Below are positions 11,342-14,929 of a stretch of 22,940 nucleotides of DNA, piece by piece. The notes below the pieces were generated by a model, which made no database searches, was not told where the DNA came from, and worked only from the letters and a program-made list of their open reading frames with translations. Origin of the DNA: Salpingoeca rosetta. Its lineage: Eukaryota > Opisthokonta > Choanoflagellata > Craspedida > Salpingoecidae. The stretch spans positions 615,181-638,120 of the forward strand of contig NW_004754908.1 of the NCBI RefSeq assembly GCF_000188695.1, written 5' to 3'. Each line of letters starts with the position of its first letter. Position 1 is the first letter of the stretch. Position numbers and translations under genes: made by a program.

Positions 11342-14300
11342 ATGGCAAAGAGAGCCGACACTTTCAACCTCTCAGACTTGTCCAAGCTGAGCCAGGATGA
11401 CCGTATCGCTGCCATGCGCATGGTCGCCGAGGGCGAGATGACCATCGACGAGGCCATTGCCAAACTCAAGACGCAAACAGGGTCTGCAGACAAGTCCATG
11501 ACGCTCAAGGGCGTGGGCCACTTTGGCCGCGGCTTTGCCCGTCGTGCCTTCCGTCAGAACCGCGGCCGCCTCTTCCTGGACATCCGCGTGCAGAAGGCGT
11601 CTGCGTTTTGCGTGCTCACCGTGACGGTTCGCGAGGGCCGCGATCTCATTGCCATGAACAAGAACAACACCGCCGATCCACAGCTCAAGATCTGGCTCAC
11701 CCCAGACGAGAAGGCCACCAAGAAGAAGTCCAATGTCCGCAAGAACACCGTCAACCCCATGTTCAACGAGACGTTCCGCTGGGAGGTGCGCACGGGCGAC
11801 GTGGAGAACAGGCAGCTCAAGCTCGTCGTGTCCGAGTACAGCAAGCTGCGGCGCTCGCAGTTTATGGGCTCCATGACCTTCCCACTGGCTGAGCTGTTTG
11901 AGGATGGCCACCGCGAGGGCTGGTTCCGCCTCCTCGACGCTAAGAAGGGCGATTTCCAGTACATCCCCTTCAGGCCAAAGGTCAAGGATGACACTCAAGT
12001 CAGCGTGCGCAAGGGCGGCCAACAAGCGTAAGTGTGGGCGTGCGTGTGTATGTGTGTGGGTGTGGGTGTGTGGGTGGGTGCGCGTCATGTGTGGGCGGGT
12101 GCGCGTGATGTGTATGTGTATGTATGTGGGCATGTGTGGGCGTGTGTCTGTCACCAGGAATGCAGCCATTTCCCGGTTGTGCGGTTGCCCCTGCTTGTCG
12201 TGGGTCTGTGCTGCCGTGTCGTGGTCATGCCGTTCGACACACGCGCGTGCGCCTCACATCATCACACACCAACAAACAACAACAGACAAGCAAAGATGCC
12301 GCCGGCGCCAAGCAGAGCCAAACCCGCGCCCGCCCCTGCCCAGGAGCCTGCCAAGAGTGAATCACGTGCGCAAACCCTCTCCAAAACCCAATCAGCTGCC
12401 AAGGACTTTGGCAAAGTCGACCAGTCAACCTTCACATACCTCAAAGTACGTTGACGCTGTGCTTATGTTTGCTGGTGTTTATGTGTGTGACGGCGTAGAC
12501 AAGAGAAAGAGTGTGCGTGTATTTTGTGCGTGGATGTGGATATGCCTGGGTTCGTATGTGTTTGTGTGTGGGGACGGCTGTGTTCATAATGGTGCAGGCG
12601 CCTAGCTGCCAGCTCATGGCCTTTTTTTTTTTGTGTGTGTGACGATGTTTGGTGCAGGTGCTTGGGCAAGGTAGCTTCGGTAAGGTGCTGATGGCGGAAC
12701 ACAAAAAGTCACGTGACGTGTACGCTGTCAAGGTGCGCCTCTCTGCCTCCCCCAGTGTCATCTCCTGCTTGTTTGCGACGCACATGTCTTTTTCGTTGTC
12801 CGTGTTTAGTCTAATGCATCCCTGCTGGGAACACACACACACACTCACACACTCACACACGCACACCCTTCTCTTTCCCGCCCCCGCCCCCTTCTTGTTT
12901 TGATACGTGGCTCCCCTTTCGATGCCTGCAGGTGTTGAAGAAAGAGGTGGTTGTTGAGGATGACGATGTGGACTGCACCATGACGGAGCGGAGCGTGCTC
13001 GCCATGGCCAGCCGCTGCCCGTTCCTGACCACCCTCGTCGCCTCCTTCCAGACCCCAGAGCACCTCTACTTTGTCATGGAGTTTGTCACCGGTGGTGACC
13101 TCATGTTCCACATCCAGAAGCTCAAGCGCTTCAGCTACGAGCAAACCGCCTTTTACGCAGGTACACACTCGGGTGTGCACGTCCACGCGACTCTTTGTGT
13201 GTGCGTGTATGTGTGCGTGAGTGTTTTCATGTTTGTGTGCGTGTGCTTGTGTTTGTGCTTGCTTGCTTGTGTGATGAGTCACAGCCTTGTTCGTGTGTGC
13301 TTCGTGCAGCACATGCAAACACACGCTCACGCACAACCGATGTGCTCACCTGTGTGCTGTCGCCCCTGCCTCCGGTTTTGCTGCAGGCGAGATTTGCCTT
13401 GGCCTCTGGTACATGCACAGCCATGGCGTCCTGTACCGTGATCTCAAGCTTGACAACGTCATGCTCGCTGGCGTAAGTTGACTCAGTTGTGTGTGTGTGT
13501 GTGTGTGTGTGTGGTCGCGACAGTGCCCTGTCTGTGTGCGTGCGTGTTTGTGCGTGTGTGGGCTTCACCATTCGTTCGCAAGGATGCGTTAGCGTGCTTG
13601 TGGAGCCGGCGTACTTCGGTTCCGAGACTCTTTTTTTTCACACTCACTCGCGTTGTTTATGTTTCCCCTCCTCATGGCATCTCTCCCTTGCACCTCCCCT
13701 CCTCCTACCAGGATGGCCACATCAAGATTGCTGATTTCGGCATGTGTAAGGAGAACATTTGGGGTGCGGGTACAACAACCACCTTCTGCGGCACCCCCGG
13801 CTACCTTGCACCGGAGATCATCCGCGAGCTGCCCTACGGCGCGTCTGTCGACTTTTGGTCGCTGGGCGTGCTCGTGTACGAGATGCTTGTTGGCGACTCG
13901 CCGTTTGAGGGCGATGATGAGGAGGAGCTCTTTGACCAGATTCTGCACCACAAGGTGGAGTTTCCCTCGCGGTTGTCTGCAGACTGCAAGGCGTTTGTGG
14001 ACAGCCTGTTGACGCGTGACCCGCGCCACCGCCTCGGCTGCGGCCCTTCTGGCCAGCAGGATGTCAAGGCACACCCCTTCTTCAAGATTATCGACTGGGC
14101 GAAGCTGGAGAAGCGCGAGGTGAAGCCGCCGTACGTGCCGCGCGTGAATGATCCCCGCAACGCAGACTGCTTCGATCCCGAGTTTACAGAAGCAGACACG
14201 CGCCTGTCCCCGGCAGACCCGTACGCGATTGCCAACATTGACCAGGGCGTCTTCCGCAACTTCTCCTTCCTCAACGACGGCTACTTTGGCGGCGAGCAGG

Positions 14301-14929
14301 GCTCTGCCAAGGTTGTGGAGGACCCGCTTGTGCGTCGCCCGGCGCTGTTTGACTATGCGTGGTACCGCCCCGATCTCCCACGTGAGGAGGCAGCCAGGAA
14401 CCTCCGCGGGAAGCCCGTCGGCACCTTCTTTGTCCGCGAGTCCTCCAGTCAGCCAGGGTACGTGCGTGGCGATGATGATGGTGGTGGTGGTGGTGGTGGT
14501 GGTTGTGTGCCTGCCTTCGTGCGGGTCTTCTTGTGCTTGTCTTCTTGTGCTTGTGCTTGTGTTTGTGTTTGTGCGTGTGTGCTCGTGGCTGTATCTTTCT
14601 GCGTTTCTGTGCTTGTGGTATTCATGTGGCAGTCCTCTCACATGCTCTTCTCCACTCCCCGACGCCCTCTTCTTCTTACCCACACCTGCTTTGTGTTGTT
14701 GTTCTCGGTGCTCTTGCGCGCGTGCAGATGCTATGCCATTGCAATGGTGTCTGAGAACAACAAGATTTGGAACGGTCTCGTGACGCCCAGCATCACCAGC
14801 GACAACCGCACGCTGTACAAGTTGTTTGTCAAGCAGAAGTTTGAGAGCTTACCTGAGCTGATTGATTATTACTGCTCCCATCCCGTGACCACGGGGCCGT
14901 CGGGCAAGAAGCTCTGCTTGCGCAAGTAA
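11342..14929 (+). CDS. Protein kinase C-like kinase with C2 and C-terminal SH2 domains, 727 aa
   Basis: Exons 11342..12027, 12286..12445, 12658..12732, 12932..13160, 13387..13472, 13712..14457 and 14728..14929 give 2184 nt, all phases matching. Domain order: a short helical N-terminus (13-43); a pseudosubstrate-like basic segment [14 protein letters not shown] (61-74); a PKC-type C2 domain (about 75-211); a Pro/Ala/Ser linker (229-275); and an AGC kinase (about 279-536) with GQGSFG (285-290), VAIK-type Lys307, alpha-C Glu326, YRDLKLDN (400-407), DFG (420-422), activation-loop Thr436 in TFCGTP, and APE (445-447). A PKC tail follows with turn-motif Ser578 (LSPAD) and hydrophobic motif FRNFSF (593-598, Ser597). 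Last comes an SH2 domain (629 to about 720) with W629, PREEAA (Arg636), FFVRES (beta-B5 Arg654) and [11 protein letters not shown]. All catalytic residues are present, so an active Ser/Thr kinase is expected. There are no C1 domains. The likely role is phosphotyrosine-recruited PKC-like signalling (inference). Confidence 0.95.
12028..12285 (+). other. PKC-SH2 intron 1 with GU-rich 5' arm and AC-rich 3' arm
   Basis: The donor GTAAGT opens about 125 nt of G/U-rich sequence (to about 12152). The last 48 nt (12238-12285) are A/C-rich and end CAACAAACAACAACAG with no polypyrimidine tract. The acceptor was fixed by phase: GC from exon 1 plus A gives Ala229 and continues [10 protein letters not shown]. 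Confidence 0.75.
13484..13512. repeat. GT microsatellite in PKC-SH2 intron 5
   Basis: A (GT)n run lies about 10 nt after the GTAAGT donor at 13473. The intron ends at a conventional pyrimidine-rich acceptor (CTCCTCCTACCAG, 13699-13711), so here only the GT arm is present. Confidence 0.8.

Follow-up and report, generated by a model that had tools for sequence, protein, structure and literature searches.

Can a Ser/Thr kinase of the protein kinase C (PKC) family be wired to phosphotyrosine through a module carried on the same polypeptide? This question is raised by a gene of the choanoflagellate Salpingoeca rosetta, whose genome (54.4 Mb, 49 contigs) was analysed here over a stretch of 22,940 nucleotides (C26:615181-638120), hereafter the window. 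The gene (11342-14929, + strand) consists of seven exons separated by GT-AG introns, which join in phase into one protein of 727 amino acids followed by a stop codon, as an earlier reading of the sequence alone had proposed. Its product, which we call SH2-PKC, is by sequence and tree a member of the PKC family (AGC group), and it ends in an SH2 domain. All together, the data presented below make it probable that SH2-PKC is a PKC branch that swapped the diacylglycerol (DAG) and Ca2+ inputs for a phosphotyrosine input.

When Pfam calls were judged against the curated cut-offs, the C2, Pkinase, Pkinase_C and SH2 domains all scored above them. Specifically, a pseudosubstrate-like segment without Ser or Thr (11534-11563, +; amino acids 65-74) precedes the C2 domain (11612-11932, +; amino acids 91-197; 1.7e-22), which is followed by the protein kinase domain (12434-14083 with introns included, +; amino acids 279-536; 1.4e-67), the Pkinase_C tail (14144-14269, +; amino acids 557-598; 3.4e-8) and the SH2 domain (14360-14872, +, with intron 6 within it; amino acids 629-709; 4.1e-14). 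The tail holds the turn site S578-P579 and the hydrophobic motif FRNFSF (S597), so that, with T436 of the T-loop, all three PKC phosphorylation sites are present as sequence. The SH2 match, whose failure to pass the threshold the sequence-only reading had named as grounds for giving up the fusion, scored 52.9 bits (cut-off 21) and covered profile positions 1-77 of 77; the domain is complete, with the W629, R636, R654 and ELIDYY that had been pointed out in it. The proposed order of C2, kinase and SH2 also held, the window and its relatives sharing the order C2-kinase-tail-SH2. The pseudosubstrate-like segment resembles, by eye, the RRGAFKQKN of the conventional PKCs P0028 and P0032.

The closest solved sequence is that of PKC beta (6e-156 over amino acids 72-604), and the kinase-domain entries matched were, in order, PKC beta, alpha, eta, theta and iota, PKN2, PKN1 and AKT2. 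The earlier assignment of an AGC/PKC kinase with turn and hydrophobic motifs is therefore backed by Pfam, by the PKC beta match and by the tree described below. The SH2 domain alone, compared with solved structures, matched SHP2, CRK and others (best 2.4e-12). In an AlphaFold model of the relative P0004 (22 relatives aligned; mean predicted local distance difference test 75, predicted template modelling score 0.55), SH2-like elements appeared after amino acid 634 and helices at amino acids 10-51. The first Foldseek match of this model was full-length PKC beta, and the 50 listed matches were PKC, PKN and AKT kinases, with no SH2 entry among them.

The gene had been taken for a single odd fusion. 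A search for the same architecture elsewhere revealed instead a conserved family with at least 26 relatives, one of them from Monosiga brevicollis. Using the C-terminal part as query, 6 matches of 93 candidates and then 17 of 729 candidates (query included) were obtained, and amino acids 55-605 gave 5774 matches of 7990 scored, the best 120 of which were listed. At least 25 proteins carry an annotated kinase and SH2, and the addition of P0022 brings the relatives to at least 26, all with the kinase-tail-SH2 order and one (P0022) with a shortened SH2. This number is a lower bound on sequences and an upper bound on species, because P0014 and P0015 are near copies. C2 is annotated in 22 of the 26 relatives, the others (P0001, P0007, P0008 and P0014) being truncated at the N-terminus. 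Two proteins were left out of the family: P0017, which lacks a kinase match, and P0019, which lacks an SH2. P0017 (544 amino acids) has a C-terminal SH2 similar to that of SH2-PKC and, by eye, hydrophobic stretches in its first 130 residues.

Ten relatives bear Trinity or comp-type transcript names (P0002, P0003, P0004, P0013, P0021, P0022, P0023, P0026, P0030 and P0091); the comp names would fit the choanoflagellate transcriptomes of PMC6040629, described in the available part of that paper as built with a 2013 Trinity release. A separation of kinase and SH2 in transcripts, which had been envisaged as a finding that could undo the fusion, was for the most part not seen among the relatives: in nine of the ten, one open frame spans the kinase and the SH2 through to its last part, whereas P0022 leaves the SH2 half-way, after 38 of 77 profile positions, and continues differently from where intron 6 lies in the window gene, and P0019 has no SH2 at all. 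Chance is excluded as the source of the architecture by the Pfam E-values and by the 26 relatives with the same kinase-tail-SH2 order. We conclude that SH2-PKC is a conserved family and no annotation artefact.

Next to the added SH2 stand the losses, which were followed in an alignment of the window protein, the 26 relatives, P0019 and six conventional PKCs. No C1 domain was matched at an E-value of 0.01 in any of the 22 relatives scanned, nor in P0001, P0022 or the window. A C1 hidden in an intron between the pseudosubstrate and C2 was ruled out, since both lie within exon 1 and none of the 22 relatives matches C1. In addition, the five Ca2+-binding Asp of the conventional PKC C2, which we take to be residues 187, 193, 246, 248 and 254 of PKC beta, are reduced to between zero and two in all 24 aligned family members, the window protein showing NDESQ (N106, D112, E165, S167 and Q173) and hence one of five; by contrast, the six conventional PKCs read DDDDD in five cases and DDDDE in one. 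The sequence-only reading had rightly noted the missing C1, by contrast with animals only, and had overlooked the loss of the C2 Ca2+ site. The missing C1 and the lost Ca2+ ligands rule out membership of the conventional PKCs.

The residues of catalysis and priming are kept. K307, E326, D402 and D420, the T-loop T436, the S/T-P of the turn site and the Phe pair of the hydrophobic motif are present in 27/27 SH2-PKC members, while the Ser of that motif is found in 26/27, with Asp in the remaining one. W629, R636 and R654 of the SH2 are likewise found in 27/27, so that both phosphotyrosine-pocket arginines are invariant, R654 (codon 14435-14437, +) being the FLVRES-type phosphate-binding (beta-B5) Arg. 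At the acceptor place of the basic segment before C2, neither Ser nor Thr was seen by eye in 24/24 (window, 22 relatives and P0019). The activation segment reads GTPG in all 27 members as against GTPD in 6/6 conventional PKCs; this family-specific Gly is G442 of the window protein (GTPGYLAPE; 13799-13801, +). No conserved tyrosine is proposed as an internal SH2 ligand: those present in 27/27 (Y400, Y443, Y454 and Y630) fall within the kinase or where the SH2 begins.

A kinase tree of 38 rows united the 27 SH2 members in one branch (100/100), which was recovered (100/99) in a tree of 36 rows from which the AKT-like and C18 rows were left out; these trees are most simply read as a single fusion event. 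Rooted on one distant AKT-like row, which adjoins a weak branch (62/0), the 38-row tree put the SH2 branch nearest conventional PKC with modest support (83/82), and the 36-row tree, with all rows lacking SH2 on one side, leaves the sister group undecided. The SH2 donor was sought among the other SH2 exons of the genome, which match weakly (best 7.3e-5), and none can be named. Two other PKCs of this genome, on contigs C3 and C1, have tandem C1 domains, and the SH2-PKC gene is therefore an extra branch; DAG-responsive PKC has probably not been replaced here. P0019 (715 amino acids) has the same N-terminus and C2 as the SH2-PKC family, and no C1, with a mixed kinase: 90% identical to P0006 at amino acids 315-363 and, at amino acids 475-523, 67% identical to the C3 PKC and 44% to the window protein. 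It fell outside the SH2 branch in both trees, although its placement with that branch was unrejected (approximately unbiased test, p 0.161). P0019 may be a pre-fusion form, a loss or a chimeric transcript, and does not settle the order of C1 loss and SH2 gain.

How could such a kinase be controlled? According to the available part of a 2026 PKC review (PMC13142937), binding through the regulatory module unleashes PKC activity and a subfamily is defined by what is bound; on that definition, the SH2 would therefore be a new binding input. With both pocket arginines invariant, control of the kinase by phosphotyrosine is plausible, and from the sequence we infer phosphotyrosine binding and SH2-driven activation. 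In the scheme that we favour, PDK1-type phosphorylation and autophosphorylation would come first, after which the pseudosubstrate would keep the kinase off. The SH2 would then dock at the membrane on an activated receptor or scaffold that bears phosphotyrosine, perhaps assisted by a Ca2+-independent C2-lipid contact, and this docking would bring the kinase to its substrates and favour release of the pseudosubstrate. As a result, tyrosine kinases would reach Ser/Thr phosphorylation by a route that bypasses PLC-gamma, DAG and Ca2+.

Several observations weigh against this scheme. The pseudosubstrate-like segment of the window protein is one residue, a Gly, shorter than that of P0003 and P0004 (ARR-AFRQ versus ARRGAFRQ), and the resemblance to a pseudosubstrate is poor in P0006, P0021, P0030 and P0049. 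The lipid step is weakened by the C2 positions K127 and K129, which are Lys in 8/24 and 11/24 respectively. At the beta-D4 place, taken from the SHP2 alignment, none of the 26 members whose SH2 reaches columns 680-682 has a His; this residue is common, not universal, in SH2 domains, and its lack suggests that the affinity of SH2-PKC may be unusual. With a predicted template modelling score of 0.55, the P0004 model does not fix the packing of SH2, C2 and kinase. P0019 shows the N-terminus and C2 of the family without an SH2, and the gene model is drawn from the window DNA and from relatives.

The shorter pseudosubstrate bears on a first alternative, namely that SH2-phosphotyrosine docking restrains the kinase, or merely targets a constitutively primed kinase to its substrates. 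The missing Gly might weaken autoinhibition, and the absence of C1 takes away the usual release step; set against this is the basic segment without an acceptor Ser or Thr, which recurs in every one of the 24 sequences inspected by eye, the four poor matches notwithstanding. We regard restraint or mere targeting as doubtful. A second alternative, in which the SH2 does not bind phosphotyrosine in trans and instead clamps the kinase tail, for structure or autoinhibition, or has a ligand that is unphosphorylated or carries phosphoserine, draws on the short distance of about 32 residues between the hydrophobic-motif Ser and the SH2, and on the absent beta-D4 His. Against it, the two pocket arginines are the same in 27/27 while much of the SH2 varies, and the linker is variable in length and sequence, which does not point to a tight fixed clamp; this alternative appears unlikely. 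Docking of the SH2 on phosphotyrosine, followed by activation, is the reading that we retain as probable.

The gene model itself was assembled as follows, all features lying on the + strand. Exon 1 (11342-12027) encodes, in a single unbroken piece, the start codon, an N-terminal helical motif, the pseudosubstrate-like segment and C2; exon 2 (12286-12445) the linker and the kinase start; exon 3 (12658-12732) the Gly loop up to the VAIK-type Lys, K307; exon 4 (12932-13160) the kinase N-lobe and hinge; exon 5 (13387-13472) the catalytic loop YRDLKLDN; exon 6 (13712-14457) the stretch from the DFG through the activation segment, C-lobe and PKC tail into the first third of the SH2; and exon 7 (14728-14929) the remainder of the SH2 and the stop codon. 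The start codon is in the same place as in P0003 and P0004, which lend no support to another ATG of this frame at 11255; upstream of the start, the frame is closed by a stop at 10958. GC at third codon positions is 77.6%. Around these sites, 12 of the enumerated splice combinations stay open (719-727 amino acids), and therefore the frame alone does not dictate the chosen exon set. Five of the six junctions are fixed by relatives, with 6-11 of 11 residues identical to each of P0002-P0005; at the exon 6/7 junction (amino acid 661), 9-11 of 11 match in four relatives. At the exon 1/2 junction, which falls in a variable linker, 0-3 residues match and the choice of acceptor between 12286 and 12296 is uncertain. 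Intron 6 (14458-14727), inside the SH2, is 270 nucleotides long, a length divisible by three, and contains no in-frame stop, so that the frame would permit an unspliced reading; its retention would insert a low-complexity stretch into the SH2 with the stop codon unchanged. The aligned relatives lack this insert, except for P0022, with other sequence from this very point. TG/CA dinucleotide arrays were seen in an intron (13488-13513) and in the DNA 3' of the gene (about 15870-15932 and 16400-16500).

That the fusion is a gene-model artefact, made of two adjacent genes or of a kinase transcript ending before exon 7, is highly improbable and is rejected on the evidence of the relatives: the open intron 6, the SH2-less P0019 and the half SH2 of P0022 speak for it, but exon 6 alone encodes the kinase tail together with about the first third of the SH2, kinase and whole SH2 share one frame in nine transcript-named relatives, and 9-11 of 11 residues around junction 661 match in four relatives.

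The N-terminal helical motif (11375-11467, +; amino acids 12-42) has a weak SHOCT-like similarity, below the cut-off, and is unrecognisable in P0021, P0030 and P0049. It gave weak matches (1.3e-3 and 2.7e-3) in two other genes of the genome, at loci C7:1434697 on and C2:364849 on. One of the two is a PTB-HMTK-like tyrosine kinase gene, with a PTB domain (4.3e-14) and a tyrosine-kinase-like domain reading HMDLAARN; the other has perhaps two motif copies, the second seen by eye. The His-Met of HMDLAARN recalls the HMTK kinases of Monosiga, which, according to the available text of PMC3082566, owe their name to this pair in their catalytic loop. An N-terminal module common to a phosphotyrosine-writing and a phosphotyrosine-reading kinase is suggestive, but the helical motif spans few residues and its matches are weak. 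We hold evenly balanced the broader proposal of a choanoflagellate PKC class in which C1 was deleted, the C2 Ca2+ site eroded and an SH2 taken on instead, giving a one-step tyrosine-kinase-to-PKC pathway, and in which the helical motif, weakly shared with the PTB-HMTK-like kinase, might hold phosphotyrosine writer and reader in one complex.

Elsewhere in the genome, two further PKC-like kinases (C18 and C34) have no C1 match, and introns may hide domains in them. The C18 gene (kinase matches at 824763-826648) shows a pseudosubstrate-like RRRHGAVKKKK, a C2 with Ca2+ ligands and a kinase, with an EF-hand-like stretch, by eye, just upstream; it is possibly another C1-less PKC class. A count by exon or stretch gives 70 SH2 matches in the genome at E-values up to 0.001, which agrees with a rich phosphotyrosine system. 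The window also holds a 2237-amino-acid open frame with low-complexity tracts (1901-8614; no Pfam match at 0.01), an open frame with a weak APP1 phosphatidate phosphatase match (17278-18519; 0.0072, below the cut-off) and one with a Glyco_transf_49 match (20711-21430; 7.7e-7).

Compared with known systems, SH2-PKC resembles conventional PKC (alpha, beta and gamma) in its pseudosubstrate-like segment, C2, kinase, C-tail and T-loop, turn and hydrophobic sites, and differs from it by the lack of C1A/C1B, the loss of most C2 Ca2+ ligands, the added SH2, the N-terminal helical motif and GTPG in place of GTPD. Its one named relative, Monosiga brevicollis MONBRDRAFT_39232 (P0049), has the same architecture and shares its branch, with 46% identity over amino acids 55-605; the N-terminal motif is unrecognisable there (5/33 residues). 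Because public databases already list this protein, as "Protein kinase C", SH2-PKC is an uncharacterised variant of the known PKC family and not a new kind of system. No description of it was found in the open-access literature searched; the main SH2 inventories, including that of Monosiga, lie outside that search and may list one. Likewise, the available part of the 2026 review, with its four PKC subfamilies, mentions no SH2 form (PMC13142937).

Other kinases offer partial parallels. PKC delta and PKC theta bind phosphotyrosine, which for theta is key to activation, as stated in the part of PMC3507883 at hand, and this gives a precedent for a phosphotyrosine-driven PKC; in these enzymes, however, the C2 itself reads phosphotyrosine and C1 is present, whereas SH2-PKC has a separate SH2. 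Dictyostelium Shk1-5 join a kinase to an SH2, needed in Shk1 for plasma-membrane localisation, and the accessible text of the same paper (PMC1420674) reports that no PKC was found in Dictyostelium; the Shk kinases are of the tyrosine-kinase-like group, while the window kinase is PKC-type and so outside that family. In Src-type kinases, too, an SH2 is linked to a kinase, but this is a tyrosine kinase with N-terminal SH3 and SH2 (PMC8662651, in excerpt). Conventional PKCs are found in all holozoans, choanoflagellates among them, according to the available portion of PMC10586763. SH2-PKC, in turn, would be a further class beside the four PKC subfamilies of the review cited above (PMC13142937, available part), and it looks like natural input swapping on a conserved autoinhibited kinase.

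In animals, PLC-gamma, DAG and Ca2+ connect receptor tyrosine kinases to conventional PKC; in a choanoflagellate, a close relative of animals, a single protein seems to contain the tyrosine-kinase-to-PKC link.

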